Origin: Aminobacter niigataensis
GTDB taxonomy: Bacteria; Pseudomonadota; Alphaproteobacteria; Rhizobiales; Rhizobiaceae
Length of the DNA stretch: 64,000 nt
Direction: 5' to 3'
Assembly (NCBI RefSeq): GCF_014200015.1
Contig: NZ_JACHOT010000009.1
Location: forward strand, 62,001-126,000
The notes below the pieces were generated by a model. It ran no database searches and had not been told where the DNA came from. It saw only the letters and a list, made by a program, of their open reading frames with translations. The translations under genes and the position numbers were made by a program. Below, piece after piece: positions 616 to 23,015 of this stretch; position 1 is the first letter of the stretch; each line of letters opens with the position of its first letter.

Positions 616-635
616 CGGATTTCTCCTTTGCCCAA

Positions 636-666
636 AGCATAGCGCGCAACGCTATAGTCTTGTCAA
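636..666 (-). promoter_or_regulatory. Leftward early promoter P_L
   Basis: Read on the minus strand: a perfect -35 TTGACA (666-661), 19 bases, then TATGCT (641-636), 20 bases before the ATG at 615. The spacer holds a complete 17-bp repressor operator. The rightward promoter at 1748-1778 has the same TTGACA-N19-TATGAT layout with the same operator in the spacer. If -10 is read two bases earlier the spacer becomes 17. Confidence 0.65.
639..655. promoter_or_regulatory. CI operator O_L1
   Basis: The palindromic half-sites ATAGC and GCTAT flank 7 bases: ATAGCGCGCAACGCTAT. It is the exact reverse complement of the operator at 1759-1775 and sits between the -35 and -10 of the leftward promoter, so a bound repressor would block RNA polymerase. 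Confidence 0.75.
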
Positions 667-675
667 GCCAGAAAT

Positions 676-965: not shown

Positions 966-1691
966 TCAGAGATGGATTTTTTGACCCTCGTCGAGATCGA
1001 AGATCGCCTTCCCGAACAGGTTATAGGATCCCGTCACATAGGCGATGATTCTGATCTCCTCGCCCTCGACGATGCCATTTTTGGGGATCAGGATCGGCTT
1101 GTGATGGAGGTTCGTGGACTCCGGCATCAAGGCGATCCCGTTGGGCTCCTCCCAGTACCGCTTGATGGTCCGCTCCCGCTCCTGGCCATCGAACCGCATC
1201 CGTTCGACGACAACGATGTCGCCTGTCGCAATCGGCCGATAGTGCTCGACGAAATCCAGGTAATCGACGCCGACAGCGAACATGCCATCGAGGATCCCAG
1301 CCTTGTTCATGGAATCGCCAAGGACCTGCCAGACGTACTGGCGGGCACGCCGATACCGCGGATCCGGAGATATCGCGACGGCCTGCGGCTCATGATTGGA
1401 ATGCAGGTTGATGTCGACGAAGACACCGGCCTGGGCGATCCCTGCATAGGGGAGGAACGGCGCTGCTTCAGCGTCGGAGCCCCGGTCTGAGGTGCCCTCG
1501 AATTCCTCGCCGAAGAGCTCGTTGAGATCGACTCCCAGGACCTGCGCGATCTGCTGATAGCGGTCCATGCCGGGATTCGATTTGTCCCGCTCGATCTTGC
1601 TGAGATTGGTCCAGTGCATGTCGAGCTGCTCGGCGAGGTCGGCTTGCGACATCCCTTTGGCAGCCCTGATAGCGGCGATGTTGTTTTTCAT
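966..1691 (-). CDS. CI-like phage repressor (XRE HTH plus S24 LexA-type peptidase)
   Basis: A 241-aa master repressor of lysogeny. Residues 4-58 form an XRE helix-turn-helix (IRAAKGMSQADLAEQLDMHWTNLSKIERDKSN). Residues ~115-235 form the S24 self-cleavage domain, with nucleophile Ser127 in GDSMNK and Lys177 in RTIKRYW. Candidate Ala-Gly cleavage sites are A83-G84 or A88-G89 in YAGIAQAGVF. RecA-stimulated cleavage would induce the prophage. The gene is divergent from the Cro-like gene. Four ATAGC/GCTAT sites nearby are its probable operators. Its own start codon is only 6 bases after a TATGCT box (1703-1698) with no Shine-Dalgarno, suggesting a leaderless transcript. Confidence 0.92.
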   Translation of the reverse strand: MKNNIAAIRAAKGMSQADLAEQLDMHWTNLSKIERDKSNPGMDRYQQIAQVLGVDLNELFGEEFEGTSDRGSDAEAAPFLPYAGIAQAGVFVDINLHSNHEPQAVAISPDPRYRRARQYVWQVLGDSMNKAGILDGMFAVGVDYLDFVEHYRPIATGDIVVVERMRFDGQERERTIKRYWEEPNGIALMPESTNLHHKPILIPKNGIVEGEEIRIIAYVTGSYNLFGKAIFDLDEGQKIHL

Positions 1692-1717: not shown

Positions 1718-1747
1718 ATACGGGAAAAGCGGCAAACGCGATGCCGC

Positions 1748-1778
1748 TTGACAAATGCATAGCGTTGCGCGCTATGAT
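1748..1778 (+). promoter_or_regulatory. Rightward early promoter P_R with operator O_R1
   Basis: TTGACA (1748-1753), 19 bases, TATGAT (1773-1778), with the 17-bp operator ATAGCGTTGCGCGCTAT at 1759-1775 filling the spacer and overlapping the -10. The ATG of the Cro-like gene begins 8 bases after the -10, so this mRNA also looks leaderless. It drives the whole rightward early region unless a further promoter lies downstream. Confidence 0.7.
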
Positions 1779-1785
1779 TATCGTC

Positions 1786-2187: not shown

Positions 2188-2691
2188 ATGATCGAGGCCG
2201 AGATCGTGGAAAGCTCAACCAAGAGCTTGGAAAGTTTAGCCAAGGGCAGAAGCCCGAGGCGGGGCGGCGGCATCATGTCTAGCGTTACCGCCGCCTTCAC
2301 AGCCGAAAAGCGATCACCACGCCAGATAATCCAGGCAGTTGGCGACCTGTTGGCGCCTAACGTGCCGGCAAAGAGCCAGTTTGCTCCGATCCTGCGGGCG
2401 CTGATCAAATTTGTTCCCCAAGAATACCATAAGCGAGTCACGGAACGGCGGGTTCGTGGCATCTACAACGGCGACGCTCGCCGCGTTGAATGGTACGAAG
2501 TGCAAGCGCTTCTTGATATCGAAGCGACCGAGGAGGCCAGACGTGCCAAGCTTAAACTCGCCACCACGGCGCACATTCTGGCAGCTCATCTTGCCGCTGA
2601 GGGTGCGCCGCTCGATGGCCACCAGATGCGTGCTCTGGGGCGACTCGCTGGCGCACTGGATCTATCCGGAACTGGCGGAGACGCCAGGTGA
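2188..2691 (+). CDS. Hypothetical early phage protein
   Basis: A 167-aa protein with a purine-rich ribosome site (GAGGGA) 6 bases before ATG 2188. ATG 2275 is an alternative start (MSSVTAAFT). The segment YHKRVTERRVRGIYNGDARRVEWYEVQALLD looks helical and basic, possibly DNA-binding. A segment like this occurs in early regions of many rhizobial phages. Its stop overlaps the start of the GcrA-like gene by 4 bases, so the two are translationally coupled. The function is unknown. Confidence 0.65.
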   Translation: MIEAEIVESSTKSLESLAKGRSPRRGGGIMSSVTAAFTAEKRSPRQIIQAVGDLLAPNVPAKSQFAPILRALIKFVPQEYHKRVTERRVRGIYNGDARRVEWYEVQALLDIEATEEARRAKLKLATTAHILAAHLAAEGAPLDGHQMRALGRLAGALDLSGTGGDAR

Positions 2692-3554
2692 GCGCGCCAG
2701 CAAAACCATGGCTGGCGATGACGCCAGCCCAGCGCCTCGAGGCGGTCCGCCAGCTACTTGAGCAGGGGCACGCCCCTAGCGCCATCGCCTGGAAATTCCA
2801 GGCCCGCCCCGCCGCTATCGCCACGGTCGTCAAGGCGATCCGAAAAGCCGACGGGGCCCCGCAAGACGAATCCCCCCCTGTCGCGGCCGACCTCACCCAG
2901 CGAGCCTGGGCAATCCTGACCAGCGAGGAACGGGATGCCGTGGTTCTCGCGCTGCGCGCCGACGGTCTGGCGGCATCAGCGATAGCAGCCCAGCTCGCCA
3001 CGACCCGCAATGCTGTCATCGGGTACATGAAGCGGTTGACCGACGCCGGCGTCGAGGTGCCAGGCCTCAAGAAGCCGATGCGGCCGCGCACCAGCAGGGT
3101 GCCGACGCCACCATCACCAAGCAAGAAGCAGGCGACTCCAAAACCTGCAAAAGCCCCGGCGCCGAAGCGCGACAAGGTTTTACGCAGAAGCGCCGCCGGT
3201 GCCGTCGAAGCGGTACCGATGCGCGGCCCCAACAATCCGCATCCCTATGACTTCAAGGCGCGCGCCGAGCAGCGTGCCTCATCCCCAGGGCTATCCCCTG
3301 CTCTCGTTGCCGGCGAGCCCATCCGTGCCATCGAGGATCTCGCGGCACCCGTTTCCCGACGTCTCGCGTTGACGCAGCTCACCGAGCGGACCTGCAAATG
3401 GCCGAATGGGGACCCGCAGGCCGAAGACTTCGGGTTCTGCGGCCACCAGGTCTCCAGCGCGCCGTACTGCGCCTACCACGCCCGTATCGCCTACGTGCCT
3501 CCCACTATCCGCCACCGCGCCGACATCAGGTCGGCGGAAAGGAAATTCGCATGA
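2688..3554 (+). CDS. GcrA-like cell-cycle regulator with an extra N-terminal HTH
   Basis: 288 aa. Residues ~73-118 (LTSEERDAVVLALRADGLAA ... TTRNAVIGYMKRL) match the GcrA DNA-binding domain, in which TRNAVIGK-hRL is the hallmark. Residues ~231-270 (TERTCKWPNGDP, FGFCGH, PYCAYHARIAY) match the C-terminal sigma70-interacting domain of GcrA, with its paired Cys/His positions. A Pro/Lys-rich linker joins them. An additional HTH-like unit (residues ~10-52, MTPAQRLEAVRQLLEQGHAP) precedes. Host GcrA activates transcription at GANTC-methylated promoters with sigma70. The phage form may redirect this. It overlaps both neighbours by 4 bases. Confidence 0.85.
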   Translation: MSAPAKPWLAMTPAQRLEAVRQLLEQGHAPSAIAWKFQARPAAIATVVKAIRKADGAPQDESPPVAADLTQRAWAILTSEERDAVVLALRADGLAASAIAAQLATTRNAVIGYMKRLTDAGVEVPGLKKPMRPRTSRVPTPPSPSKKQATPKPAKAPAPKRDKVLRRSAAGAVEAVPMRGPNNPHPYDFKARAEQRASSPGLSPALVAGEPIRAIEDLAAPVSRRLALTQLTERTCKWPNGDPQAEDFGFCGHQVSSAPYCAYHARIAYVPPTIRHRADIRSAERKFA

Positions 3555-4078
3555 CCGTTCATGAGCGTCCGAACCGCGCTTCGGCGAATGAAGCAGCTTC
3601 CTTTGTCGAAGAGTACGACCGTCTCGAGCAAGTCCGCGAGGAAAAGCTTCGCCTCCTCGATGCCGACTTCAAGACGAAGAAGCGGGCGATCCAGAAGGAA
3701 ATCGACAGCTCCCAGGGCACGCTTCTCGCCGATGCGAAGAGGCAGGGCGTCAACAAGGGCGTCATCCGGGCGCTGACCGATGCCCAGAAGATCAAGCGCA
3801 AGGCCGAGGCTTTGATGGAACGCGCCGAAGGCAAGGTCGACGGCCTCGATGAGGACGATCGCGACTTCGCCGTCGATATCCGCACCGCTCTTGGCGACGA
3901 CTTCGCCGGCTTCGGGCTCGGCGCCGCGGCTGTGGCGCGCGAGGACACCGTCGCCGAAGAGGCGAAGCCTGATGCCACCACGCAGGCCGTGATTGCAGCC
4001 GTCAGGGCCGACATGAGCGAGGACGACTGGGACAAGGCCGCACCAGACGTAAACAGCGAGGCGACTGCCCCGCACTGA
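3551..4078 (+). CDS. Coiled-coil protein, possibly GapR-like
   Basis: 175 aa from ATG 3551, overlapping the stop of the GcrA-like gene (ATGA). Residues ~14-80 form a charged coiled coil (SFVEEYDRLEQVREEKLRLL, then ADAKRQGVNKGVIRALTDAQ). The order 'helix with RLE...EK, then D/EAK-x-x-G-x-x-x-x-x-(I/L)' resembles GapR/DUF2312, the nucleoid protein of alphaproteobacteria that binds overtwisted DNA. The heptads are longer here and an acidic Ala-rich tail is added. The match is by eye and weak. A scaffold-like or SSB-like early protein is possible. Confidence 0.6.
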   Translation: MTVHERPNRASANEAASFVEEYDRLEQVREEKLRLLDADFKTKKRAIQKEIDSSQGTLLADAKRQGVNKGVIRALTDAQKIKRKAEALMERAEGKVDGLDEDDRDFAVDIRTALGDDFAGFGLGAAAVAREDTVAEEAKPDATTQAVIAAVRADMSEDDWDKAAPDVNSEATAPH

Positions 4079-4255
4079 TCCCGAGCGAAAGCCTCCGATG
4101 ACAACGGCAGGATCACCGGCGAGGCCGGCCCTGTGACGGGAGAGGTGAGTAGGCCGCGCGGGGCGGACCGCGCAGGGGGAACGCCACCTCCTATCAGGCG
4201 TGACAGGACGGAGAGACGTCCACCAATCCAAGGCCCGAAAGGGCGGAGTTCCGTG
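4079..4255. other. Short non-coding gap
   Basis: 177 bases between the coiled-coil gene and the resolvase gene, with no convincing reading frame of its own. A GC-rich hairpin (GCGCGG / CCGCGC around 4159-4176) is visible. A purine-rich ribosome site (GGGCGGAG) precedes ATG 4256. No promoter was recognised with confidence. Confidence 0.4.
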
Positions 4256-4912
4256 ATGACCACACCGCGCATTCTTGCAATCGATGCCGCAGCCCATTTC
4301 GGCTGGGCTTATGGTCCCATAGGCCAGATACCGCGGTCCGGCGCACAGTACTTCGCGAAATCCGGCGCCGGCGCCAGCTACGCCAACATCATGCTTGGCG
4401 CCATGCGCTGGACCACGGAATTCCTGACCGCCTATCCGGCCGACTATGTCGTCGTCGAACGGGCGGTGCCGGACACCGGCGGCATCAAGAACAGCACCAA
4501 TTACGAAACCTCGGAAATGAAGAACGGCCTGATCGGCGTCATCGTGGCGACGGCTCGTCTTCTCAAGGTCCGCAATCCGGATCTGATCATCGGCGACCAG
4601 CGCGGCGAACACCGACTCTGGCTATCGACGGTCCGCGCAAAATTCCTTCCGAAGAAACCCAAGGAAGACGCCGCGAAGCCGATTATCCGGCAGAAGTGCA
4701 TCGACCTCGGCTGGATCAGCCAGGCCGAAGCCCTTGCCGACAAGGGCTTCGACAGAACCGACGCCCTTGCGAACTGGTACTGCGCTTGCCTGCTCATCGA
4801 CCCCAGGAAGGCGCCGCCTGTAGACCCGCTGTTCCTGGCCGCGGAACGCCGCAAGCGCGAGGCCGAGGCGCGGTCGCATCCATCCCAACCAACAGTTCCG
4901 GAGCGTTTCTGA
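4256..4912 (+). CDS. RuvC-like Holliday-junction resolvase / nuclease
   Basis: 218 aa with the RNase H-like RuvC fold. Asp10 lies in ILAIDAAAHFGWA (first strand), Glu68 in YVVVERAV (fourth strand), and Asp166 and Asp169 in GFDRTDALA (final helix), giving the acidic catalytic set. Phage members cut branched DNA during replication or packaging. The start at ATG 4256 is favoured by a GGGCGGAG ribosome site and the typical immediate RILAID beginning. An upstream in-frame start at 4133 would add 41 low-complexity residues. The stop overlaps the next gene by one base. Confidence 0.82.
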   Translation: MTTPRILAIDAAAHFGWAYGPIGQIPRSGAQYFAKSGAGASYANIMLGAMRWTTEFLTAYPADYVVVERAVPDTGGIKNSTNYETSEMKNGLIGVIVATARLLKVRNPDLIIGDQRGEHRLWLSTVRAKFLPKKPKEDAAKPIIRQKCIDLGWISQAEALADKGFDRTDALANWYCACLLIDPRKAPPVDPLFLAAERRKREAEARSHPSQPTVPERF

Positions 4913-5031
4913 TGCAGTTCCGAACCCCGCATATTGTGAGCCACGCCCTGCCCGTCGTGGTGTTTATCGCCGCCCTCGTACTGATCATTGGTGTCGTTGC
5001 CGGCATCATCGAACCAGTGGAGCCACGGTAG
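4912..5031 (+). CDS. 39-aa single-span membrane protein
   Basis: ATG 4912 shares a base with the upstream TGA, and the TAG at 5029-5031 directly abuts the next ATG. This tight packing supports translation. Residues ~10-32 (SHALPVVVFIAALVLIIGVV) form one transmembrane helix, with a basic N-terminus and acidic C-terminus. No family was recognised. Confidence 0.6.
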   Translation: MQFRTPHIVSHALPVVVFIAALVLIIGVVAGIIEPVEPR

Positions 5032-5775
5032 ATGCGTGCCGTGGTTGCCGGAGATAGACCGCCATTCAATGCAGTCGTGACGTCCTGGCTGTCGCATCGT
5101 CAAGCCAGTGTCGGCGTCGCCAGCAGTCCCGAAGAGCTCGCAGCGGCGACCCGCGCCGATCCTCTCCGTCTCGCCGTGATCTGGTCCGAAGATGGATACC
5201 GCGCGGTGTCCGCGATTCGTCGCCTCCGCGATGCCGCCATCGGCAATCTGATCATGGTGATGATGCCGGCGCAGTGCGAGGACCTCGCCGCCGATGCGAA
5301 GCACCGTGCCGTCGCCTTGCGTGCCGGAGCCGATGACGCCCAGACCTGGCCGCTGGCCGAAGACGAGTTCATTGAACGTTGCCGAGCCCTGATCCGCCGC
5401 GACCGTGGGCTCTATGCCGACGAGAACATTGTCAGGTTCGCGGGCTGCGATTTCCTGCCCGAGCTCAAGATGATCCGGTCGCCGGCAGGTGTCATCGCTC
5501 TAACGCCCCTCGAGACAGCCTACATGCTCGCTTTGACCCGGCATGACGACCGGGTTGTCACCAACAAGGCGATTTCGATCGAGGTCTATGGTTGGGACCA
5601 TCAGGACATCTCCCCCAGTCTCGTCAAGGTATTCGTCCACCGTCTCCGCAAGCAGATCTTCGTCCTCACCGGCGGTCTCGATTTCCTCGAAACGGTATGG
5701 GGCCGCGGCTACAGGTTCGTTCGCGAAGGCTACCGGCCGAAATTCGACCATTGGGGTCGGAGGGCGGTGGGATGA
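5032..5775 (+). CDS. CtrA-like transcription regulator with degenerate receiver domain
   Basis: 247 aa. Residues ~150-232 form an OmpR/PhoB winged helix very close to CtrA: ALTPLETAYML, then VKVFVHRLRKQI, then FLETVWGRGYRFVREG (the ETVWGRGY string is characteristic). Residues 1-122 follow the receiver outline (MRAVV, then LRAGADDAQTWPLAEDEFI) but lack the phosphorylation chemistry. The acidic pair is GD, the acceptor Asp position reads IWS, the Thr/Ser after strand 4 is Met, and the Lys of the T-K-P motif is Trp. So it should act without phosphorylation. It starts directly after a TAG and overlaps the next ATG. Confidence 0.82.
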   Translation: MRAVVAGDRPPFNAVVTSWLSHRQASVGVASSPEELAAATRADPLRLAVIWSEDGYRAVSAIRRLRDAAIGNLIMVMMPAQCEDLAADAKHRAVALRAGADDAQTWPLAEDEFIERCRALIRRDRGLYADENIVRFAGCDFLPELKMIRSPAGVIALTPLETAYMLALTRHDDRVVTNKAISIEVYGWDHQDISPSLVKVFVHRLRKQIFVLTGGLDFLETVWGRGYRFVREGYRPKFDHWGRRAVG

Positions 5776-6233
5776 GCGACCGTCCGATCCGCGACATCCT
5801 CGCCGAATGCATCCGCCTCGAGCGCCTCGGTCCGACATTCCCGCTTTGGGGAAGCTGGTTCGAAGAGGGTCGAGAACCCGTCCGGAAACGGGCCGACCAC
5901 ATCCTGCGACTTCTCGGCGATCGTGGCGTCGGGCTCGTCCGGACAGGCGAGCCCGCACCTCAAGCCAGACCCGATAGCCCGGAATACTGGCGGTGCAAAA
6001 TTATCGGTCGCAACGCGGAACGCATCCTGCGCGTCGGTGCCAATGGCATCGAGGTCATCATGACAGAGGGCGGCAAAGAGACCGTCCAGCTCGTCTTCGC
6101 TGTTGACGAGGCTTACGCCTTGGCGGGGCGCGGCCTCATCGGGGATCGGGATCTCATGAAGGAACCCGGTCTCGTCACCAAGCTCTCAGCGGCGCTCGAG
6201 GCGTATCGCGTCAACATCGTGGGGGCGCAGTAG
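5772..6233 (+). CDS. Hypothetical early protein
   Basis: 153 aa from ATG 5772 (ATGA overlap with the CtrA-like gene). It starts MSDRPIRDILAECIRLERLG, a mixed alpha/beta sequence with no motif I can name. The first part suggests a small helical domain and the second (ILRVGANGIEVIMTEGG) beta strands. Coupling to the regulator upstream and the methylase downstream suggests a shared role, but nothing in the sequence proves it. Confidence 0.6.
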   Translation: MSDRPIRDILAECIRLERLGPTFPLWGSWFEEGREPVRKRADHILRLLGDRGVGLVRTGEPAPQARPDSPEYWRCKIIGRNAERILRVGANGIEVIMTEGGKETVQLVFAVDEAYALAGRGLIGDRDLMKEPGLVTKLSAALEAYRVNIVGAQ

Positions 6234-6235
6234 CG

Positions 6236-7033
6236 ATGGCCCACGTCAAGAAGCACCCATGGGCCGGAATGAAGGGGCCGGCCGCCGACTTCCTGAAGCT
6301 GATAGATGATCTCGCCCGCAGCAGATCCCATCGTGACGTCTTCCACGATTTCCTTGAGGCTGCGTTCTGCGCCTTCATCTCACCGCTGACACCTCCCGGC
6401 AAGAAGCGCGACGACATCGAGGCCCGGTACCTCAAGGTCATCAACTCCGACAAGAAGTATCCGACCCAGTTTCCCGAGCTGCTCGCGATCACCGCCGCCG
6501 GCATCGATGACGAATACGACTTCCTCGGCCCCATAGCCGGCCAGGTCGCATCCCTGAACGCAGCACAAGGCCAGTTCTTCACACCCTGGGCAGTGTGTCG
6601 GGTCACGGCCGAAATGATCCTTGACGAAGACAGCGTCAAGCGAGCCATCGAGAAGAATGGCTTCATCACAGTCGAGGAGCCTGCGGTGGGTTCCGGCGCC
6701 CTTGCGCTAGCCGCAGCGGAGCGCATCCGCGAACTCGGCTTCGACCCCGAAACACAGGCATGGATCACGGCACGGGACGTCTCGATGCCCTGTATCAAGA
6801 TGGCCTACCTGCAGCTCAGCTTGCGCGGAGTCTGCGCCGATGTTTGCCATGCCAATACGCTCACCTTGGAACAATGGGGACGATACCCGACCCCCTCCAA
6901 ATTGGTATTTCGTCAACACCACGGCGACCGGCTCATCGCTTATCTAAACGATCCCGCGAACTACCTGCAACCCGCGGTACCGGCACCAACACCACCCGCA
7001 CCACAACTCGACCTCTTCGGGGATGCCGCATGA
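6236..7033 (+). CDS. N6-DNA-methylase-like protein with C-terminal clamp-binding motif
   Basis: 265 aa. GQFFTPWAVCRVTAEMIL (residues ~119-136) is the target-recognition/entry motif of HsdM-type adenine methylases. VEEPAVGSGALALAAAERI (~148-166) is the SAM-binding motif I. SMPCIKMAYLQLSLRG followed by HANTLTLE are typical later motifs. The catalytic (N/D)PP(Y/F) motif IV is not visible, so activity is uncertain. The C-terminus ends QLDLFGDAA. QLDLF (257-261) fits the beta-sliding-clamp binding consensus, suggesting recruitment to replication forks. It overlaps the next gene by 4 bases. Confidence 0.75.
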   Translation: MAHVKKHPWAGMKGPAADFLKLIDDLARSRSHRDVFHDFLEAAFCAFISPLTPPGKKRDDIEARYLKVINSDKKYPTQFPELLAITAAGIDDEYDFLGPIAGQVASLNAAQGQFFTPWAVCRVTAEMILDEDSVKRAIEKNGFITVEEPAVGSGALALAAAERIRELGFDPETQAWITARDVSMPCIKMAYLQLSLRGVCADVCHANTLTLEQWGRYPTPSKLVFRQHHGDRLIAYLNDPANYLQPAVPAPTPPAPQLDLFGDAA

Positions 7034-7212
7034 GCGAGCTCTCCGTCACCGATCTCTGTGTCGCCATGCTGCGGGTCGCTGCCCGCCGGCTGCGGGCCGG
7101 CGTCGCACCAGCAGACGTTCCGCACTCCATCGACCAGGTCGCCAGAGCCTCGATCGAGAGCGGCCGAGACAACCGGAACCTCACCACCACTCGGGATCAG
7201 AAAGGGACCTGA
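7030..7212 (+). CDS. 60-aa hypothetical protein
   Basis: ATG 7030 overlaps the methylase stop (ATGA). The product starts MSELSVTDLCVAMLRVAARRLRAG, with one amphipathic helix and a polar, charged tail. It is followed after one base by the ATG of the HerA-like gene. I can offer no function. Coupling on both sides supports expression. Confidence 0.55.
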   Translation: MSELSVTDLCVAMLRVAARRLRAGVAPADVPHSIDQVARASIESGRDNRNLTTTRDQKGT

Positions 7213-7213
7213 G

Positions 7214-9172
7214 ATGATGAATGCCGAAGTCCGTGAATCCACAGAACGACCGATCAGCCGTGCATTTGGCGTCGTGTTCCCCAAGCCCGATCAGATCGCG
7301 AAGCTCTCGCCAGCGGATCAGCTCGTCGCCCAGCTTCTTGCCGAGGAATCCGGGGTCCCATCGCCGGTCAAGATCATTCGTGACGAACCCAGGCAAGGCG
7401 CTGCCGACGTCGTAACCATCGACACCTCGGCACCAGCTCGTCCTCTTGGTGCCGGCGATATCCGCATCGGCGATACCTCGAAGGGTGAACCCGTTGGCAT
7501 CGACCTCGCCAAGCTGATCGACGGCCGACTGTTGATCCAAGGCAACAGCGGCGCCGGCAAATCCATGCTGCTGCGCCGCCTCTTCGAGCAATCGTTCGGC
7601 CGCGTCCAGCAGCTTCTCCTGGATCCCGATGGCGAGTTCTCGACGCTGAAGGAACACTTCGACGTCGCGGTCCTTTCGGCCGCTGATGTCCGCCGGATCG
7701 GCGGCCATGCCTTCGCCGAGCATCTTCGCCAGCACCGCTACAGCGCCGTCCTCGATCTGTCCGATGCGACCCCAGAGGATCGCCTCGAGCTCGTCGCCGA
7801 CATCGCCGAAGGATTGCTCGCGGTAGCGGAGCAGCATTGGCACCCGCTTCTCGTCCTCATCGATGAAGCCCAGACCGTGGCGCCGCACTACGACACCGGC
7901 GACGTCACCGCCGATACTCGCAAGCGCTCCACCGCAATGCTTTCAGACCTCATGGGCCGAGGCCGCAAACGTGGCATCGCCGGCATCATCGCGACGCAGC
8001 GCATCGCCGAAACAGCCAAGGCCGTGGTATCCAAGGCCACCAACGTCGTCGTCGGCCGCACGATCTTCGACCGCGATCTCGAGCGGGCGGGCTCGCTGCT
8101 GGGGTTTACGCTCGGGCATAGCCGGGCGCTCCGTACGCTTTCCGACGGCGAGTTCCTGGCAATTGGTCCCGCTATAGCTGGACCGCGTCGCATCAGGTTC
8201 AAGGCAGGTTCGGTCCAGTCCAGGCACAAGGGTGCGGCGCCCGAGGTCCTCGCGCCGCCGACGATCTCGGCGGCTGATGCTGCTGCCCTTCTGTTGCAGG
8301 TGCCCGATGCCGCCCCGTCCGTTCAGGCCGAGAATCGAGCGCCTGGCACGCGTGGTCGAGGATGGGACCAGCGCGAAGACCACATCATCAAGCAGGGATA
8401 CACGGAGAAACTGCCGGTTCGCGACATTGTGAACAGGCTTGAAGCTGCCGGCTTCAAGCGTCGTTCGAACAGTGGGGTTTCGACCCGTGCCCGCGACCTT
8501 GGGTTCGTGAGCGTGCGGGCCTCGGTGATGTGGTCGGATGACGAGGATCAGATCATCGCTGACGGCTATGCCCGCGAGGTCAAGATCATGGACATCGTCC
8601 AGCTGCTGTCGGACGCCGGTTATGATCGAGGCCGCGTCGCCGTTCAGATGCGCGCCATTGCCCTTGGCATCACCCGCGACCGCGTCAACTATTGGACCGA
8701 GCCCGAAAAGGACATCGCCCGCGCCGGTCTCGAAGGGGGCAAACCCTACCGCGAGATCATCGCGGATCTGGCCGCAGCGGGCTTCCACCGCGGTCTCACC
8801 GGGATCCTAAAGTTCGCCCAGAAGAACAATTTCAATCGGGCGGCTGATCCTTGGACGCATGAGATGATCGAGCGTCTTCGTGTCCTCTACGAGAAGAAGA
8901 CGCCGGTCAAACAGATCGCCGAAGAGCTCGGAAAACCGATCGCGTCGGTTCGAACCCGGGCCAGCAACCTCGGCCTGAAGCAGCGCATCGCCTGGACCGA
9001 CCAGGAATACCAGATGCTCACTGAGGCAGCGGAGCGGGGCGACAAGCTCATCGACATCGCTGCCCGCATAGGGCGCCCGTACCCCAATGTCGCGGCCGTT
9101 GCCAAACGTCTCGGCCTCAACTTCCGGCAAGGCAGATCCACCCCAGGTACCCACGAAAGGACACCCACATGA
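7214..9172 (+). CDS. HerA/DUF87-type ATPase fused to five Myb/SANT-like HTH repeats
   Basis: 652 aa. Residues ~90-330 form a HerA/FtsK-like motor: Walker A GNSGAGKS (~110-117), Walker B LVLIDEAQ (~213-220), then DLMGRGRKRGIAGIIATQR, the sensor region typical of HerA. From residue ~384 come five repeats, each opening with Trp (WDQREDH, WSDDEDQ, WTEPEKD, WTHEMIE, WTDQEYQ). Each continues as a three-helix Myb/SANT or GcrA-type unit ending near a Leu-Gly or Asn-Phe turn. The repeats probably bind DNA in tandem. ATG 7214 (or 7217) follows AAGGGA. The stop overlaps the ParB-like start by 4 bases. Confidence 0.85.
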   Translation: MMNAEVRESTERPISRAFGVVFPKPDQIAKLSPADQLVAQLLAEESGVPSPVKIIRDEPRQGAADVVTIDTSAPARPLGAGDIRIGDTSKGEPVGIDLAKLIDGRLLIQGNSGAGKSMLLRRLFEQSFGRVQQLLLDPDGEFSTLKEHFDVAVLSAADVRRIGGHAFAEHLRQHRYSAVLDLSDATPEDRLELVADIAEGLLAVAEQHWHPLLVLIDEAQTVAPHYDTGDVTADTRKRSTAMLSDLMGRGRKRGIAGIIATQRIAETAKAVVSKATNVVVGRTIFDRDLERAGSLLGFTLGHSRALRTLSDGEFLAIGPAIAGPRRIRFKAGSVQSRHKGAAPEVLAPPTISAADAAALLLQVPDAAPSVQAENRAPGTRGRGWDQREDHIIKQGYTEKLPVRDIVNRLEAAGFKRRSNSGVSTRARDLGFVSVRASVMWSDDEDQIIADGYAREVKIMDIVQLLSDAGYDRGRVAVQMRAIALGITRDRVNYWTEPEKDIARAGLEGGKPYREIIADLAAAGFHRGLTGILKFAQKNNFNRAADPWTHEMIERLRVLYEKKTPVKQIAEELGKPIASVRTRASNLGLKQRIAWTDQEYQMLTEAAERGDKLIDIAARIGRPYPNVAAVAKRLGLNFRQGRSTPGTHERTPT

Positions 9173-10992
9173 CCTCTCGCATGATTCCGCTCAACGAACT
9201 CCGGTTCGGGCACGAAGCCACGCCACCGATCAATGCCAGGCGTGTCGGCCGGGAAGACGAGATCGCCGAACTTGCGGCTTCAATTCACGCCCACGGGCTG
9301 ATCACGCCGCCCAAGGTGAAGGAGATCGCGAGAACGTTCTATGTCGGCATCGGCAATCGCCGTCTCGCCGCAATGAGGCTGCTCGTCGAACAGGGGCAAC
9401 TTGCCCCGGACTGGCTGGTCACATGCGACGAGTTCGATGGCGACATCGCCGATCCCCGCGAAATCGCTTTGGCGGAGCAGATCATGCGGGCGCCACTGCA
9501 TGAGGCCGACCAGCTCGAGGAGTTCACAATCCTCGTCGACGCCGGGCTTTCCGAGGCCTCCATCGCGAGCCGCTTCGGTATCGAACCTCAGCGGGTCAAG
9601 AAGATCCTGGCGCTTGGTCGCCTCTCCCCTGTCATCCTCGATGCCTGGCGTCAGGGTGCCTTTGATCGTGAACCCGCTGGCTGCGTTCGTGCTTTCACGC
9701 TCGCGCCGTCGATCGAGGCCCAGGAGGCCGTGTTCGCGAAGCTGCACAAGAACAACAATCTGCATGCCCACGCGATCCGGCAAGCCTTCGGGGCCAACAA
9801 TCATGAAGCCGCGAAGGCAATCAAGATCGCGGGTGTCGAGGCCTACACGGACGCCGGCGGCCGGATGACGACGGACCTCTTCGGGGACAACCATGTCATC
9901 GAAGATCCCGAGATAGCGGTTCAGGTCGCCGAGGCCAAGATCGAGGCCACCCTCACAGGTCTCCGTGCCGAGGGCTGGTCGTGGGTTTCGACGGCCGATG
10001 ACCTCCCCTATTCCTGGACCTATTCCTGGGGCACCGAGAAACCGGCCGAGGGCAAGGCCACAGCCGGCGAAAAGAAAGCGATCAAGAAGCTCGAAAAGGC
10101 TGCGGCCAAGGGCACCGATGGTGCCGCCGACGATCTGGCGGCACTGCAGAAAGCGATTGCGGAGCGGCAGTGGACCCCGGAGCAGCTCGCGCGCGCCGGC
10201 GCCGTCCTCACCATCAGCCACTACGGCGATCTCAACATCAAGCGTGGTGTCGTCAAACCCCATGCCGCGAAGAAGGCGGCAAGCGCGGACGCCGATGGCA
10301 CCAAAGAGAAGGCGGCCCCAACGATCTCGAATGCCTTGGCGATGCGGCTGTCGGCGCAGGCCGGCCTCGCCACCCGCAAGGCATTGCAGGCCGAACCGCG
10401 TCTCGGGCTCATCGCCCTGCTCGCCGGCTTCCTGACGAAGCGTGACATGTACAGCGGGGCGAGACTTTGCCCGATTCATGTCAGCCACGAAGGCATGGGC
10501 TACCAGCAGCTCCGTGGTACCGAGCTCTTCCAGGATGCCCTCGAACGTCTGCAGGCAATGACGGATTCCGAGCTGTTCGTTGTTGCCGCCGGCATCGCTG
10601 GCAACGCCGTCGACCTCCATGTCTCGTCATCCGAGTATAAGGCTTTCGACGGTGCGCCGGCCGCGCTCGCCGCTGCCATTGACGCCGACAACATGACGGC
10701 GGCTCTCCATGAGACCTTTGATGCCGCTGATTACTTCGGCGGGGTCTCGAAGTCATTCGTTATCGATGCGATCCGCGAAGCCATCAACGACGATGAGGCG
10801 AGGCGAGCCGACAAGCTGAAGAAGAAGGAGCTCGTTGACTTCGCCGTTGAGAACGTGGCCGGCACCGGCTGGTTGCCACCCGAGCTTCGTGCCCCAACCT
10901 ATTCCGGCCCAGGCGAGCGGCCGGCCATCGCTGCCCCAGCCCTCGAAGAAGATCCCGATTTTGCGGAGATCGACGAGGAAGAGGCTGCTTGA
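9169..10992 (+). CDS. Large ParB/RepB/Spo0J-family protein
   Basis: 607 aa. The N-terminal ~60 residues are a ParB/sulfiredoxin domain (MIPLNELRFG, EIAELAASIHAHGLI, YVGIGNRRLAAMRLL, the last replacing GERRxRA). Residues ~105-160 carry the ParB HTH (LSEASIASRFGIEPQRVKKILALGRL). The long C-terminal half is specific to phage and plasmid members and ends in an acidic tail. No ParA is encoded nearby, so partition is not obvious. A CTP-dependent clamp that loads on phage DNA or regulates transcription is another option. It is coupled to the HerA-like ATPase. Confidence 0.82.
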   Translation: MTSRMIPLNELRFGHEATPPINARRVGREDEIAELAASIHAHGLITPPKVKEIARTFYVGIGNRRLAAMRLLVEQGQLAPDWLVTCDEFDGDIADPREIALAEQIMRAPLHEADQLEEFTILVDAGLSEASIASRFGIEPQRVKKILALGRLSPVILDAWRQGAFDREPAGCVRAFTLAPSIEAQEAVFAKLHKNNNLHAHAIRQAFGANNHEAAKAIKIAGVEAYTDAGGRMTTDLFGDNHVIEDPEIAVQVAEAKIEATLTGLRAEGWSWVSTADDLPYSWTYSWGTEKPAEGKATAGEKKAIKKLEKAAAKGTDGAADDLAALQKAIAERQWTPEQLARAGAVLTISHYGDLNIKRGVVKPHAAKKAASADADGTKEKAAPTISNALAMRLSAQAGLATRKALQAEPRLGLIALLAGFLTKRDMYSGARLCPIHVSHEGMGYQQLRGTELFQDALERLQAMTDSELFVVAAGIAGNAVDLHVSSSEYKAFDGAPAALAAAIDADNMTAALHETFDAADYFGGVSKSFVIDAIREAINDDEARRADKLKKKELVDFAVENVAGTGWLPPELRAPTYSGPGERPAIAAPALEEDPDFAEIDEEEAA

Positions 10993-12083: not shown

Positions 12084-12880
12084 GCGAGAAAGCACGTTTC
12101 AGTTCAGAGGCCGAACTCTGCGCCACTTTCATCTCGCAGCTGCCCGAGGGATGGACCGCATACCCGGAGACCGCCGGTTTCGACATCCTGCTTGCGCGCG
12201 ATGTGGATGGCGTGCAGATCGGCATCGAGGCCAAGCTTGCCCTGAACGCCAAAGTCATCGAGCAAGTGATGCCACATGATAGTTGGTGGCACGCCGATGG
12301 CGAGCACCCCGAATATCGCGCCGTGCTGGTGCCATGGGGATGCTCCGGCGGCCTCGCCGCGGTCTGCAAATTCCTCGACATCACCATCATCGAAATGGCG
12401 TCGAAAGCCCTCTATCAGTCCTGGCACCCCATGGTACGCCGAAAGATGTCGCCCGATCTCCCTAAGGTCGGCGACCATTGGTACCAGGACAGGAAATGGC
12501 GGGACTGGTGCCCGGCGAAGCGCTGCGCGCTCCCCGATTATATCCCTGATGTGACCGCGGGCGCCTCGGCACCCGTCCAGCTCTCGGGTTGGAAGGTCAA
12601 GGCCATCAAGCTCATTATCCTCCTGGACCGACGTGGCTACGTCACCCGAGCCGACTTCAAGCATCTCGAGGTCGATCCCGGCCGCTGGATCTACAGCGGG
12701 CGCTGGCTTGCCCATGGGGCCGTCAAGGGCCAGTTCGTGAGATGCGAATACACCCCTGATTTCCGGGCCCAGCATCCCGTGAATTTCGATCAGATCGCGG
12801 CCGACTTCGAAAAATGGTCGCCGCAAGCCATCAGGGCCGACCACGTCCCCGCTCCGGAAAAGCAGGAGCGCATGCTCTGA
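12080..12880 (+). CDS. PD-(D/E)XK nuclease-like protein
   Basis: 266 aa, starting at GTG 12080 (GTGA overlap). Near the N-terminus the pattern E11, D35 in GFDILLAR and E50-A-K52 in GVQIGIEAKLAL gives an E...D...ExK arrangement in the alpha-beta-beta order of the PD-(D/E)XK fold, as in restriction-like and Holliday-junction enzymes. The rest (WYQDRKWRDWCPAKRCALPDY) is unfamiliar and holds a possible wing or HTH near residues 170-215. Coupling to primase suggests processing of replication intermediates. The nuclease call rests on motif spacing only. Confidence 0.6.
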   Translation: MSEKARFSSEAELCATFISQLPEGWTAYPETAGFDILLARDVDGVQIGIEAKLALNAKVIEQVMPHDSWWHADGEHPEYRAVLVPWGCSGGLAAVCKFLDITIIEMASKALYQSWHPMVRRKMSPDLPKVGDHWYQDRKWRDWCPAKRCALPDYIPDVTAGASAPVQLSGWKVKAIKLIILLDRRGYVTRADFKHLEVDPGRWIYSGRWLAHGAVKGQFVRCEYTPDFRAQHPVNFDQIAADFEKWSPQAIRADHVPAPEKQERML

Positions 12881-14004
12881 TGTCGCAGCGATATGACCCC
12901 GCCGAACTCGACGTTTTGAAGTCGCGGACCTCGCTGTCCAAGGTGTTCGAGACCTATGGCATCAGGTCCAAGGGCAGTGCGCGCGCCCGATGGGCGGTCT
13001 GCTGTTTCCATCATGAGAAGTCAGGCAGCCTGAAAATCGACGATCAACGTGGCCGATACAAATGCTTCGGCTGCGGGGTCAGCGGCGACCACTTCACCTT
13101 CCTGAATGAGTTCGTGGGAAAGAGCTTTCATGAGGCCGTCGAATATCTCGGTGGGAGTGTCGGGTTTGTCACCACGGAGGAACGCCGAGCCATCGAGCAG
13201 CGCAACGCCGAATGGGAGGCCCAGGAGCTCGCCGAGAAACAGCGAACGATGACGTCGGTGCAACGGATCTTCGACAACGGGAAAACGATCCATGGCACCC
13301 ATGCCGAGGCCTATCTGGCGGCACGTGGCCTCAGGGTCGTCAAACACTGGACGTTCGATATCAGGTTCGTCGCCGCGTTGACCTATCGGGGTTGGCCAAA
13401 CCCCGATGCCGACGACACCGTCGAACTCGGCACGTTCCCGACCATGATAGCCGCGATCCGCAACCCGGGTGGCGACATCATCGGGCTCCACCGCACCTAT
13501 CTCGATCCCGACCGGCCGGCGAAGCTCACACCTCCTGGCGATCAGCGGCGCAACAAGGCGAAGAAGGTGCTCGGGGAGCAGCGCGGCGGCATGATCCGCC
13601 TCTCCCCGCTGGGTCCACGTCTGGCGATGGGCGAAGGCATCGAGACCTCGCAGGCCTGGTTCTCCGGAGGCTTCGGCGGCATCGATGACGTCGCTGTTGC
13701 CGCTGCGGTCTCGCTGGGCAATCTTGCGGGCTCCGCCATGGGGTCCGCGGAGCATCCCAGCGATCACTCGAAGCGCGTCCCCAACGGGATCCCCGATATG
13801 GAGCGCCCCGGCGTCGTTCTCCCCGACGAGGTCCGCGAGCTCGTCCTCATCGGCGACGGCGACAGTGACCCCGCGATGACGAGGGCCCGCCTCATGGTGG
13901 CGGGCCGCCGATACCGAAACCTCGGCCGCAGGGTGTTCGTATCGATGGCGCCTCAGGGCAAAGACTTCGCTGACCTCAACCTCGAGCTTGGGGCCGGCCA
14001 ATGA
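12880..14004 (+). CDS. Phage DNA primase (CHC2 zinc finger plus Toprim)
   Basis: 374 aa. Residues ~39-70 (CCFHHEKSGSLKID, then YKCFGCGVSGD) form the CHC2 zinc-binding domain of DnaG primases. Residues ~245-365 resemble a Toprim domain (RLAMGEGIETSQAW, giving the acidic Glu; ELVLIGDGDSDPAM, giving the DxD; then KDFADLN). It makes RNA primers for phage replication. The short length and missing helicase-binding domain are usual in siphophage primases. The helicase is encoded directly downstream with a 4-base overlap. The ATG at 12880 shares a base with the upstream TGA. Confidence 0.88.
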   Translation: MSQRYDPAELDVLKSRTSLSKVFETYGIRSKGSARARWAVCCFHHEKSGSLKIDDQRGRYKCFGCGVSGDHFTFLNEFVGKSFHEAVEYLGGSVGFVTTEERRAIEQRNAEWEAQELAEKQRTMTSVQRIFDNGKTIHGTHAEAYLAARGLRVVKHWTFDIRFVAALTYRGWPNPDADDTVELGTFPTMIAAIRNPGGDIIGLHRTYLDPDRPAKLTPPGDQRRNKAKKVLGEQRGGMIRLSPLGPRLAMGEGIETSQAWFSGGFGGIDDVAVAAAVSLGNLAGSAMGSAEHPSDHSKRVPNGIPDMERPGVVLPDEVRELVLIGDGDSDPAMTRARLMVAGRRYRNLGRRVFVSMAPQGKDFADLNLELGAGQ

Positions 14005-18234: not shown

Positions 18235-18879
18235 ATGCAATCGCACAATTCATACTCGGCCGAGATGCGGCCGATTGCCGACGTTATCCCCTATGAACGC
18301 AATCCGAGAGTGATCCCGGAGAGCGCAGTACTCAAAGTTGCGGCTTCGATCCGCGAATTCGGATGGCGCCAGCCCATCGTTGTCGACGAGGCCGGCATCA
18401 TACTCGTCGGCCATACGCGGCGACTCGCCGCCATCCATCTCGGCTTGGCAGAGGTACCGGTCCACGTCGCTGTCGGCTTGACGCCGGCACAGGCGCGGGC
18501 TTATCGCCTCGCCGATAATCGCGTCGGCGAAGAGACATCTTGGGATTTCGAGACCCTCGGCCTCGAGATCGAGGCGCTTGGGGCCTCTGATCTCGACATC
18601 GATCTGTCATCGATAGGGCTCGACCTCGGGTCTTTCACCGATTTCGACGGCGAATTGACTGCCGGCGCCGACGCCGTCGAGGCCAAAGCCTCGCTGATGG
18701 AGCGTTTCGGGGTCGCCCCATTCTCGGTTCTCAACGCCCGCGATGGGTGGTGGCAGGACAGAAAGCGCGCCTGGCTGGCGATCGGCATCGAATCCGAGCT
18801 CGGCCGAGGCGAAAACGCGCTGAATTTCAGTGCGACTGTGATCGCGGCGACTGCTCCGAAGCGTGGAGCACGCCGATGA
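18235..18879 (+). CDS. ParB-like N-terminal domain protein
   Basis: 214 aa from ATG 18235 (TTG 18220 would add five residues). It holds the ParB/sulfiredoxin-like domain: MRPIADVIPYERNPRVIPE, SIREFGWRQPIVVDE, ILVGHTRRLAAIHLG, LTPAQARAYRLADNRVGE. In many phages this domain is fused to a DNA methyltransferase. Here the methyltransferase is the next gene with a 4-base overlap, so the pair looks like a split form of that fusion. The domain likely guides or regulates the methylase. It is unrelated in length to the 607-aa ParB-like protein at 9169. Confidence 0.8.
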   Translation: MQSHNSYSAEMRPIADVIPYERNPRVIPESAVLKVAASIREFGWRQPIVVDEAGIILVGHTRRLAAIHLGLAEVPVHVAVGLTPAQARAYRLADNRVGEETSWDFETLGLEIEALGASDLDIDLSSIGLDLGSFTDFDGELTAGADAVEAKASLMERFGVAPFSVLNARDGWWQDRKRAWLAIGIESELGRGENALNFSATVIAATAPKRGARR

Positions 18880-22802: not shown

Positions 22803-23015
22803 ATGCGCTATGTCACTGCCGCTGCGCGCGGTATCCGCCGTGGTGCGACGTCAGTTGCGCGGGCCGTACCGGTCCTGGCTCGCGATTGCATCGGGCTCGT
22901 CGGCGCCGCATCGATCGTATACGGGATCGCTCAAATCCATGTCCCCGCCGCATACATCGTCGGCGGCTTGATGTTGATGTGGGCGGCATTCGCCCTGGCC
23001 GGGCGGGCGAACTGA
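22803..23015 (+). CDS. 70-aa membrane protein between terminase and portal
   Basis: From ATG 22803. A basic N-terminus (RYVTAAARGIRRGATSVAR) is followed by two hydrophobic segments (IGLVGAASIVYGIAQIHV and YIVGGLMLMWAAFALA). The TGA overlaps the portal ATG. Small membrane proteins at this spot occur in many alphaproteobacterial siphophages, but their role is unknown. Confidence 0.6.
   Translation: MRYVTAAARGIRRGATSVARAVPVLARDCIGLVGAASIVYGIAQIHVPAAYIVGGLMLMWAAFALAGRAN

Follow-up and report, generated by a model that had tools for sequence, protein, structure and literature searches.

Does a phage carry its own regulators of the host cell cycle, and what would such a set do? The question is raised by a block of genes in a 64,000-nt stretch of Aminobacter niigataensis DNA (hereafter the window). 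In an earlier note on this DNA, it was proposed that one tightly coupled unit carried a GcrA-like protein, a possible GapR-like coiled coil, a CtrA-like protein and an N6-methylase-like protein with a clamp-binding tail. GcrA is a sigma70 cofactor which binds sigma70 and methylated GANTC promoters, GANTC being the methylation site behind its binding, and GapR forms a dimer of dimers around overtwisted DNA. Phage GcrA has previously been taken to hint at interference with the cell cycle.

Organization of the operon

It was found that the frames at 2688–7033 were closely packed in one operon, which belongs to an alphaproteobacterial prophage (Table 1). Overlaps of 4 nt were observed between orf167 and gcrA (2688–2691), gcrA and the gapR-like gene (3551–3554), the CtrA-like gene and orf153 (5772–5775), and the methylase-like gene and orf60 (7030–7033). 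The remaining neighbours abutted or were 1–2 nt apart, with the exception of a 177-nt gap between the gapR-like and ruvC-like genes, where Rfam gave no match. The proposed tight coupling was thus borne out. The operon extended further, upstream to orf167 and downstream to the HerA-like and ParB-like genes, which were followed in the window by primase and helicase-like genes. The 34-nt inverted repeat is probably the operator of the CI-type repressor.

Three members of the unit had been absent from the earlier note, namely the RuvC-like gene, the 39-aa peptide and orf153. For the RuvC-like protein, nothing above cut-off was found in Pfam; for the AF2 model of orf153 (pLDDT 76), no PDB fold match was obtained at E 0.001.

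Table 1. Features of the operon and its upstream flank (window positions)
Feature	Position	Strand	Basis or remark
34-nt inverted repeat, left copy, candidate operator	635–668	.	85% complementary to 1746–1779
CI-type repressor, HTH + UmuD-like part	966–1691	-	divergent from operon; phrog_4 transcriptional repressor E 2e-23, phrog_811 UmuD-like E 2e-5
34-nt inverted repeat, right copy, candidate operator	1746–1779	.	upstream of rightward genes
orf167, opens cassette	2188–2691	+	phrog_26665 E 8e-6
GcrA-family protein, 288 aa	2688–3554	+	PF07750 E 6e-29
GapR-like protein of 175 aa, helical, with long first helix + C-terminal extension	3551–4078	+	hhalign
Intergenic stretch with hairpin, possible structured RNA	4079–4255	+	visual inspection: paired changes between relatives
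RuvC-like protein	4256–4912	+	phrog_159 RuvC-like E 1e-3
39-aa peptide, membrane-like by its letters	4912–5031	+	64% identical copy in L008
CtrA-derived winged-helix regulator, degenerate receiver	5032–5775	+	PF00486 E 5.5e-12, alignment, tree
orf153	5772–6233	+	12/12 phages
N6-MTase-like protein (SAM fold), no NPPY, QLDLF at C-terminus	6236–7033	+	PF02384 E 2e-6, phrog_5696 E 7e-45
orf60	7030–7212	+	4-nt overlap with methylase-like gene
HerA/FtsK-like ATPase, HTH repeats at C-terminus	7214–9172	+	PF01935 E 3e-9, phrog_323 E 5e-25
ParB-like protein	9169–10992	+	phrog_7783 E 3e-70, phrog_1033 E 7e-14

GcrA-like and GapR-like proteins

The GcrA-like protein passed the PF07750 cut-off (101.8 bits against 26.9) and was 35% identical to host GcrA across 202 aa, so its earlier designation stands. 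An N-terminal HTH candidate (HTH_22 at 4–27, E 0.003, sub-threshold) was followed by the GcrA HTH and the GcrA C-terminal Cys/His domain. In this last domain the pattern CKWP..CG..YC..H was kept, and C236, C251, C261 and H264 were invariant in the alignment with host GcrA. The protein failed the NCBI equivalog of the sigma70 cofactor GcrA (NF050816; 72 bits against 280).

The GapR-like protein had no Pfam match and did not reach the PF10073 cut-off. Among its family members, 5 of 11 gave weak PF10073 matches (best E 0.01), and GapR was their most frequent Pfam match. Comparison of the family with 28 chromosomal GapR proteins by hhalign gave 93.6% (P 2e-7, score 45.1), and none of 200 column shuffles (best 19.5) or 200 seven-residue block shuffles (best 34.4) was as good. 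When hmmsearch was run with chromosomal GapR, most phage proteins scored no higher than the best of 2,000 shuffled copies, and the protein of L012 was the sole one scoring above them all. AF2 predicted helices at 12–64 and 69–95 (pLDDT 69, pTM 0.31); the GapR fold is a long helix followed by shorter ones. GapR was not found by Foldseek or by a PDB sequence search with the window protein. By profile comparison alone, this protein would be a distant GapR relative, an assignment that is weak for the window protein by itself and supported by its family; the "possible GapR-like" of the earlier note is kept in that sense.

CtrA-like protein

The CtrA-like protein matched the OmpR/PhoB winged-helix family PF00486, and no Pfam match to the receiver PF00072 was found in it. 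At the receiver columns E7/D8, D51 and K101 it carried G, D, I and W, so that D8 alone was retained. In the alignment, the phospho-acceptor Asp D51 and the switch Lys K101 were absent from all 12 CtrA-like proteins of the family. The window and L008 proteins kept Asp at D8. In a tree of 32 DNA-binding domains, from which five truncated or chimeric rows had been excluded, all 12 family rows fell on the CtrA side, together with the CtrA of phage RDJL2 at 96/95. The split between the CtrA side and five other host regulators had a modest support of 91/77, below the tool's mark for a firm branch, and the branch of the window protein was long. Compared by itself, this protein had CtrA narrowly as the best of the host regulators (61.6 against 59.7 bits), and it failed the NCBI CtrA equivalog NF045991 (56.4 bits against 350). 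The earlier designation as CtrA-like is confirmed by domain match and tree as CtrA-derived, with the addition that the receiver is degenerate. A CtrA-like switch lacking the host's control site lends some weight to the take-over module proposed in the earlier note, and suggests that the virus may take cell-cycle control from its host.

The recognition helix motif KI[I/V]DV was retained in 10 of the 12 family proteins, and these may occupy host CtrA boxes. The helix of the window and L008 proteins was SLVKVFVHRLRKQ, compared with KI[I/V]DVFICKLRKKL in CtrA. Because of this divergence, binding of CtrA boxes by the window protein is doubtful, and in its lineage the protein probably has other operators. 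The diverged helix would also fit a scheme in which the GcrA-like and CtrA-like proteins were re-used host genes serving as early activators and repressors of phage promoters, with the host cell cycle as no target and the GapR-like and RuvC-like proteins serving phage replication. CII, N, Q and Cro of lambda offer a precedent for such an internal circuit, which we consider plausible but clearly short of probable. It is favoured by the fixed place of the genes in an operon with a ParB-like and often a HerA-like gene, with primase and helicase next in the window, and by the two versions of the GcrA C-terminal domain observed among the family phages, as phage-specific re-tuning would produce. On the other hand, CtrA boxes were not enriched in the phages: 0 exact and 1 one-mismatch box were counted in 200,728 bp from ten relatives, the same rate as in 200 kb of host chromosome, in a scan that detects the canonical box only, from which the phage's own operators could differ.

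Methylase-like protein and GANTC sites

The methylase-like protein passed the PF02384 cut-off (27.6 bits against 20.4) and retained motif I. It ended with QLDLF plus four residues, and QLDLF, which we take to be clamp-motif-like, was shared by the window and L008 copies. The catalytic motif NPPY/F was found neither in these two proteins nor in the three other phage relatives aligned (3 of 10 records). The earlier description as N6-methylase-like with a clamp-binding tail agreed with PF02384 and QLDLF. The methylase part of the proposed set failed, since the protein has no NPPY, differs in family from CcrM, which is PF01555, and was encoded in two of the 12 family phages; a CcrM-like identity was rejected. 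Elsewhere in the window, at 18747–19751 and outside the operon stretch, there was a methylase of the PF01555 type that carries a PPY motif. GANTC was no rarer in phage DNA than in the host, its density being near the host's, which also speaks against the internal circuit considered above.

In the sense of the earlier note, the methylase-like protein would set a GANTC state that is read by phage GcrA. Although the QLDLF end would suit such a module, and N6-adenosine methylation is needed for GcrA to bind in Caulobacter and other alphaproteobacteria according to the available part of PMC3667746, the idea is very improbable in view of the missing NPPY motif in the protein and its four relatives, the different methylase family, the GANTC density, the placing of the PF01555-type methylase outside the operon stretch, and the lack of the methylase-like gene in 10 of the 12 family phages.

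Conservation of the cassette among phages

The four proposed families recurred in part. GcrA, GapR-like and CtrA-like genes were found together and in the same order in all 12 family phages located, the window included, and orf153 was kept with them in all 12; the methylase-like gene was present in two. Searches seeded with the GapR-like protein found nine phages, all of which also carried GcrA and the CtrA-like gene. With the CtrA-like seed, 11 of 11 family loci carried the set, eight being shared with the first search and the new ones being 3 of 3. One family relative occurred in Aminobacter carboxidus.

Other members of the block were more variable, with the RuvC-like gene in 11 of the 12 phages, the ParB-like gene in 10, orf167 in 10 (missing from L073 and L074) and the HerA-like gene in 7; other methylase-like genes occurred in L012 and L075. 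Such variability would fit an ordinary replication operon in which small DNA-binding genes have accreted, their cell-cycle likeness being coincidental and the parts not cooperating. GcrA was also common in phages by itself (14 of 18 GcrA-seeded contigs had no CtrA-like gene in the stretch examined). We nevertheless regard this explanation as unlikely, given the four genes kept together in every family phage, a distant phage (L084) that repeats most of the block, and the pairing of CtrA with GapR, GcrA or methylases on other phage contigs.

Possible role of the cassette

What the sequences themselves show is the family membership or ancestry of the three factors (for GapR by profile comparison only), a gene order conserved in 12 phages, and the lack of D51 and K101 from every one of the 12 CtrA-like proteins. 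Genes of the recombination and replication type (RuvC-like, HerA-like and ParB-like, then primase and helicase) lie in one operon with those for a GcrA-family protein, a GapR-like protein and a protein that joins the DNA-binding domain of CtrA to a degenerate receiver. Our preferred explanation, to which we give slightly less than an even chance, is that the operon serves the early (lytic) programme of a lineage of temperate tailed phages infecting alphaproteobacteria, and that its stable cassette of host-derived cell-cycle factors decouples the infected cell from its own cell-cycle phase. The divergent CI-type protein would repress the operon in the lysogen. Upon induction, the phage would supply its own GcrA-type sigma70 cofactor, a GapR-like DNA-topology protein and a CtrA-like factor not switchable by the host phosphorelay, and under their joint action transcription and replication during infection might no longer follow the cell-cycle phase of the host. 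In our reading, the family phages would thus provide phosphorelay-independent cell-cycle factors along with replication genes. A direct block of the origin is unlikely in rhizobia, since the chromosomal origin of S. meliloti is not bound by its CtrA, as stated in the available part of PMC4433202.

With a conserved three-regulator cassette, the CtrA-derived member of which appears deaf to the host phosphorelay, the idea of cell-cycle interference becomes directly testable. If the factors were active on host promoters, this would be a rare virus with replacements for several nodes of the bacterial cell-cycle network.

Comparison with known systems

Phage GcrA, CtrA and GapR are each already on record singly, and our literature search found no paper on the three-regulator set or on a receiver-dead phage CtrA. 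In the accessible part of PMC3556154, a GcrA homologue of the large phiCbK-like Caulobacter phages was proposed to alter the host replicative state. The window phage likewise has a PF07750 protein, similar to theirs only over the C-terminal ~50 aa (43–48%); unlike in the window phage, that part of the paper reports the homologue and no set with CtrA-like and GapR-like proteins. GapR was reported in the Erythrobacter phages R34L1 and R34L2, by the authors' claim for the first time in a phage genome (PMC12185513); it is phage-encoded as in the window family but reported alone, "GcrA" and "CtrA" being absent from the main text.

The Roseobacter phages RDJL Phi 1 and 2 have a protein annotated as 'transcriptional regulator CtrA' with the CtrA recognition helix, and in the tree it grouped with those of the window family. 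This protein is 151 aa long and has no receiver domain, whereas that of the window family is degenerate. An exonuclease and an ATPase are among its annotated neighbours, and going by annotation alone there is no GapR or GcrA in the 10 kb covered.

Control of phage genes by host CtrA through TTAA-N7-TTAA boxes, 'lytic deferment', was demonstrated in PMC9437464, as far as the available part of that paper goes. Both cases tie an alphaproteobacterial phage programme to the CtrA cell-cycle axis, but the window phage has its own CtrA-derived protein in place of host CtrA, and its provirus has no TTAA-N7-TTAA box. According to PMC9437464, which cites Decewicz et al. 2017, CcrM analogues occur in Sinorhizobium phages, which are likewise rhizobial phages with a cell-cycle factor; theirs is a CcrM-type methylase, in contrast to the protein of another family without NPPY described here.

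CtrA on other phage contigs

The distant contig L084, besides GcrA and genes of the gapR-like and RuvC-like kinds, carried an intact CtrA (72% identity to host CtrA), all upstream of a primase, so descent of the window family from a working CtrA is plausible. CtrA occurred with GapR on L079/L080, L081 and L088, and with GcrA on L084 and L091. Among 13 informative phage CtrA copies, D51N was found in two (L080 and L089) and D51E in four (L085, L086, L088 and L093). The degenerate receiver, D51N and D51E mirror CtrA alleles used in the laboratory, Glu being a phosphomimic, and such phages offer natural variants of these kinds. It is possible, though doubtful at present, that alphaproteobacterial phages repeatedly captured CtrA and freed it from the host phosphorelay, by erosion of the receiver (the window family, 12 phages) or by change of D51 to Asn or Glu, several of them adding GapR, GcrA or a methylase of the CcrM type; holding the host in a fixed cell-cycle state would then be a general strategy of viruses, with the window operon as one of its branches. 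In L079 and L081, a PF01555 methylase gene lay 0.6 kb and 1.4 kb downstream of CtrA, respectively.

Organization of the prophage and the operon

The operon was found to belong to a provirus listed in IMG/VR (66,612 bases), the end of which falls at about window position 52,470 by coordinate arithmetic. Because terminase, portal, head protease, tape-measure and tail genes (minor tail and tail-fibre J) were present, the provirus was regarded as a tailed phage. The operon frames overlap, abut or stand 1–2 nt apart, with a single gap of 177 nt, in the order orf167, GcrA-like, GapR-like, RuvC-like, 39-aa peptide, CtrA-like, orf153, methylase-like, orf60, HerA-like and ParB-like. The layout, with the repressor and replication genes listed in the table, suggests early lytic expression of the operon.

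Coordinates of the features discussed in the text
Feature	Sequence	Position	Strand	Remark
34-nt inverted repeat pair	window	635-668 and 1746-1779		flanks CI-type repressor; putative operators
CI-type repressor	window	966-1691	-	
Operon	window	~2188 to 10992	+	
GcrA-like	window	2688-3554	+	
GapR-like	window	3551-4078	+	
Intergenic hairpin stretch	window	4079-4255		
Intergenic hairpin stretch	L012	10496-10660		
Intergenic hairpin stretch	L059	10499-10641		
Intergenic hairpin stretch	L073	8299-8438		
RuvC-like	window	4256-4912	+	
CtrA-like	window	5032-5775	+	
orf153	window	5772-6233	+	
Methylase-like	window	6236-7033	+	
DNA primase	window	12814-14004		right of operon
Helicase/primase-like gene	window	14001-15317		right of operon
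PF01555-type methylase	window	18747-19751	+	
Terminase	window	21047-22783		provirus structural gene
Portal	window	22886-24298		provirus structural gene
Tail-fibre J	window	41299-44973		
tRNA-Pro (ARAGORN)	window	41379-41467	-	
GapR, CtrA and PF01555 methylase	L079	9187-12342		
Host ORF L024	host	C1:980282-980452		
Partial GapR matches	host	C2:328659; C2:391207		

Recurrence of the regulator genes in phages

The earlier note had proposed that the operon assembles a GcrA-like, a possible GapR-like, a CtrA-like and an N6-methylase-like protein as a cell-cycle take-over module. The collection scans were built on short peptide patterns, and their counts refer to found cases, not to prevalence. With GapR-like seeds, nine phages with the block were recovered: the window's own phage, L008, L012, L018 (Aminobacter carboxidus DSM 1086) and L059, L060, L061, L062 and L063, among which L059, L060 and L061 are closely related to one another. 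The CtrA-like seed gave 12 loci, 11 belonging to the window family (L073, L074 and L075 being new) and one to another phage, L079. It was found that gcrA, gapR-like, CtrA-like and orf153 genes were each present in all 12 phages of the family, window included, the RuvC-like gene in 11 (missing in L075) and orf167 in 10, and within the stretches examined ParB-like genes were present in 10 and HerA-like genes in 7; missing neighbours at some loci mean little, since those loci stop soon after the seed gene. Thus three of the four proposed families recur together in every member, whereas the methylase-like gene was found in 2/12 phages (the window's and L008). A gapR-like search of 397 genomes of the host's order returned one genome, the host's own, and the cassette was rare in the sampled genomes.

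The methylase-like protein

The methylase-like protein matched PF02384 and phrog_5696. In the alignment, motif I was retained and NPPY was absent in the window and L008 copies, a Vibrio phage, Dulem virus 37 and FP_Taranis. As an analogue of CcrM it was rejected, being of the wrong family, without NPPY and confined to two family phages, and it is doubtful that it methylates. Near the C terminus of both copies is QLDLF, which resembles a clamp-binding motif. A GTDB contig scan with the protein confirmed no case, and a search of 151 genomes of the host's taxonomic family gave four matches, namely the own genome and three weak partial ones (E ~4e-4). On reading of translations, L012 carried a C5-methylase-like and a helicase/methylase-like gene in this position, the latter also seen in L075. 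Elsewhere in the window, a methylase of PF01555 type whose motifs are permuted (DPFAGG preceding SCPPY) was the sole PPY-bearing one among the methylase-like proteins examined.

GcrA-like and GapR-like proteins

The GcrA-like protein was borne out as such by a PF07750 match (E 6e-29), a GcrA-type Cys/His C-terminal domain and its identity to host GcrA (35% across 202 aa); a sub-threshold match pointed to a possible additional N-terminal HTH. When contigs were collected with a GcrA seed of the host-like C-terminal domain, by which phages with a diverged version are missed, 18 viral contigs were obtained. CtrA-like and GapR-like genes were both present in four of them (the window's phage, L008, L063 and L084), L121 had GapR and a partial CcrM-like match, and the remaining 13 had neither CtrA-like nor GapR within the stretches examined, except for a marginal GapR-like match in L115. 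It was also observed that the C-terminal domain of phage GcrA occurs in two versions, one host-like (window, L063) and one strongly diverged (L012, L018, L059-L061), which suggests exchange of this module among otherwise related phages.

For the GapR-like protein, kinship drawn from the window copy alone had to be rejected: it had no Pfam match, HMMER scored it no better than shuffles (in hmmsearch L012 alone exceeded all 2,000 shuffled copies), and neither Foldseek nor PDB sequence search with it returned GapR. Significance was reached only with 11 family members, that is, 10/12 phages (without L060 and L061) plus L084. GapR was their most frequent Pfam match (5/11, best E 0.01), and profile comparison with 28 chromosomal GapR proteins (from 30 loci listed, L058 not taken and L045 removed by the length filter) gave 93.6% probability, a result equalled in 0/200 column and 0/200 block shuffles. 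The two families aligned collinearly around an insertion of ~19 residues, by which the first helix would become longer; a helix at 12-64 and a second at 69-95 were predicted by AF2. In the host genome, ORF L024 joins the first GapR residues to a CtrA-like DNA-binding domain, and partial GapR matches were seen at two further host sites.

The CtrA-like protein and loss of receiver residues

The CtrA-like protein matched PF00486 (E 5.5e-12); PF00072 was not matched. Aligned to host CtrA, it showed Gly, Ile and Trp at E7, D51 (the phospho-acceptor) and K101 (the switch Lys), respectively, with Asp still at D8. D51 and K101 were absent from all 12 family proteins. The KI[I/V]DV recognition helix was retained in 10/12 and changed in the window and L008 copies. 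By BLAST against seven host proteins, the window protein favoured CtrA narrowly (61.6 vs 59.7 bits), and CtrA was clearly favoured by L012 (110 vs 59.7 bits) and L018 (107 vs 60.8 bits). When 32 DNA-binding domains were placed in a maximum-likelihood tree, from which five truncated or chimeric rows were excluded, all 12 family rows fell on the CtrA side and joined the RDJL2 phage CtrA at 96/95, the window and L008 forming a long branch; their separation from the five non-CtrA host regulators had modest support (91/77). RDJL phages differ in that their annotated CtrA is without a receiver. None of the 12 family proteins ends in Ala (host CtrA ends IA), and loss of a C-terminal degron may be a further step. 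A DNA-level search of INPHARED gave no match; tblastn gave 24 records with the window CtrA-like protein and 157 with L079 CtrA, among the matches listed mostly response regulators of other bacteria.

CtrA copies in other phages

The CtrA seed recovered 17 viral contigs, with an informative receiver in 13. The D51 column held Asp in seven (L081, L082, L083, L084, L087, L090, L091), Glu in four (L085, L086, L088, L093) and Asn in two (L080, L089), four cut rows being left out (L092, L094, L095 and L096, of which L094 shows Asp). All four D51E copies had Pro at D8. D51E is a laboratory phosphomimic of CtrA; a literature search found no paper calling it so. Phage tail, lysis, polymerase, integrase or terminase genes were present in L085, L086 and L093.

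Among the 17 contigs, GapR was found in four (L080, L081, L088, L096) and GcrA in two (L084, L091). L079 and L080 are one contig (IMGVR_UViG_3300050120_000442), in which true GapR (PF10073, E 5e-31), CtrA carrying both D51N and K101I, and a methylase of PF01555 stand together. L081 carried GapR, intact CtrA and a PF01555 methylase, L088 GapR and D51E CtrA, and L091 GcrA and intact CtrA. L084 had GcrA (PF07750, E 1e-35), GapR-like (46% to the window protein across 52 aa, E 2e-5), RuvC-like and then CtrA, plus a primase; an orf167-like frame before these genes was recognized by eye, which BLAST with window orf167 missed. Its CtrA was 72% identical to host CtrA with D8, D51 and K101 all intact, so a cassette of this type is also found with CtrA in a form that could still be phosphorylated. 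Assignment of L079, L081, L084 and L088 to phages depends chiefly on how IMG/VR labels the contigs: of two L079 proteins compared with PHROG, one had no match and the other matched an ATPase-type family, the L084 primase is phage-type, and the only L088 gene tested for phage nature was thymidylate synthase.

Possible targets and function

Sites of TTAA-N7-TTAA with at most one mismatch numbered 0 in the 66.6-kb provirus (1.8 in shuffles), 1 in ten relatives (200,728 bp, L060 excluded; 5.0 in shuffles) and 1 in the host chromosome (200,000 bp scanned; 5.8 in shuffles). Another ten phage loci bearing CtrA had 40 in 155,088 bp, below the 64.8 of their shuffles; the scan is a weak one, since the host ctrA promoter region itself yields a one-mismatch site only. 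Relatives and host were equal (0.5 per 100 kb) and both below shuffles, so canonical boxes were discarded as evidence for phage-internal control or avoidance. GANTC occurred at 1.67 per kb in the provirus, 1.38 in relatives and 1.35 in the host. Phage counts were 3.5-5x lower than in shuffles, yet the host is about equally depleted and depletion was not taken as a phage trait. With no sign of phage promoters built on canonical boxes in the provirus and ten relatives, and with GANTC not specifically avoided by the phage, the targets that are left are host promoters or operators of a non-canonical kind.

Beside the parts, order and conservation of the cassette and the D51 and K101 loss observed here, we infer the most likely mode of action. 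Upon derepression, the phage would express its own GcrA-type cofactor, GapR-like protein and a CtrA derivative blind to the phosphorelay together with its replication proteins, by which transcription and replication would become independent of the host cell-cycle phase. CtrA is unlikely to block a rhizobial origin directly, since in S. meliloti the origin is not bound by CtrA; indirect effects via CtrA target genes are possible, as CtrA depletion in that species leads to about 20 times the DNA per cell (PMC4433202). The strongest rival is a phage-internal role, since in the window lineage the changed recognition helix points to new operators.

GcrA is encoded by phiCbK-like phages (PMC3556154) and GapR by Erythrobacter phages (PMC12185513). 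Phage promoters are bound and regulated by host CtrA in PMC9437464, which also refers to phages that carry analogues of GcrA or CcrM, and a probable prophage operon of Brevundimonas depends on host GcrA (PMC7987155). Neither the three-regulator set nor a receiver-dead phage CtrA was found in print among open-licence PubMed Central papers.

Other features of the window

PADLOC returned only HerA, mad8 and methylase-type matches. The tRNA-Pro, being antisense within the tail-fibre J gene, was rejected as an attachment site and is probably a false tRNA. Accompanying the CtrA-like gene in 12/12 phages, orf153 might encode a partner of the CtrA-like protein; the window copy had no Pfam match and Foldseek gave no firm fold match.

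A hairpin was noticed in the non-coding DNA that separates the GapR-like gene from the RuvC-like one. Rfam gave no match at this element and sub-threshold matches elsewhere only, and single-sequence folding was mildly better than shuffles in 3/7 cases and not in the other four. The 5′ part of the stretch occurred in different versions among relatives, and the stem, as seen by eye, varied by paired changes (GGACG/CGTCC, GGGCG/CGCCC, GGCCG/CGGCC, GACCG/CGGTC).
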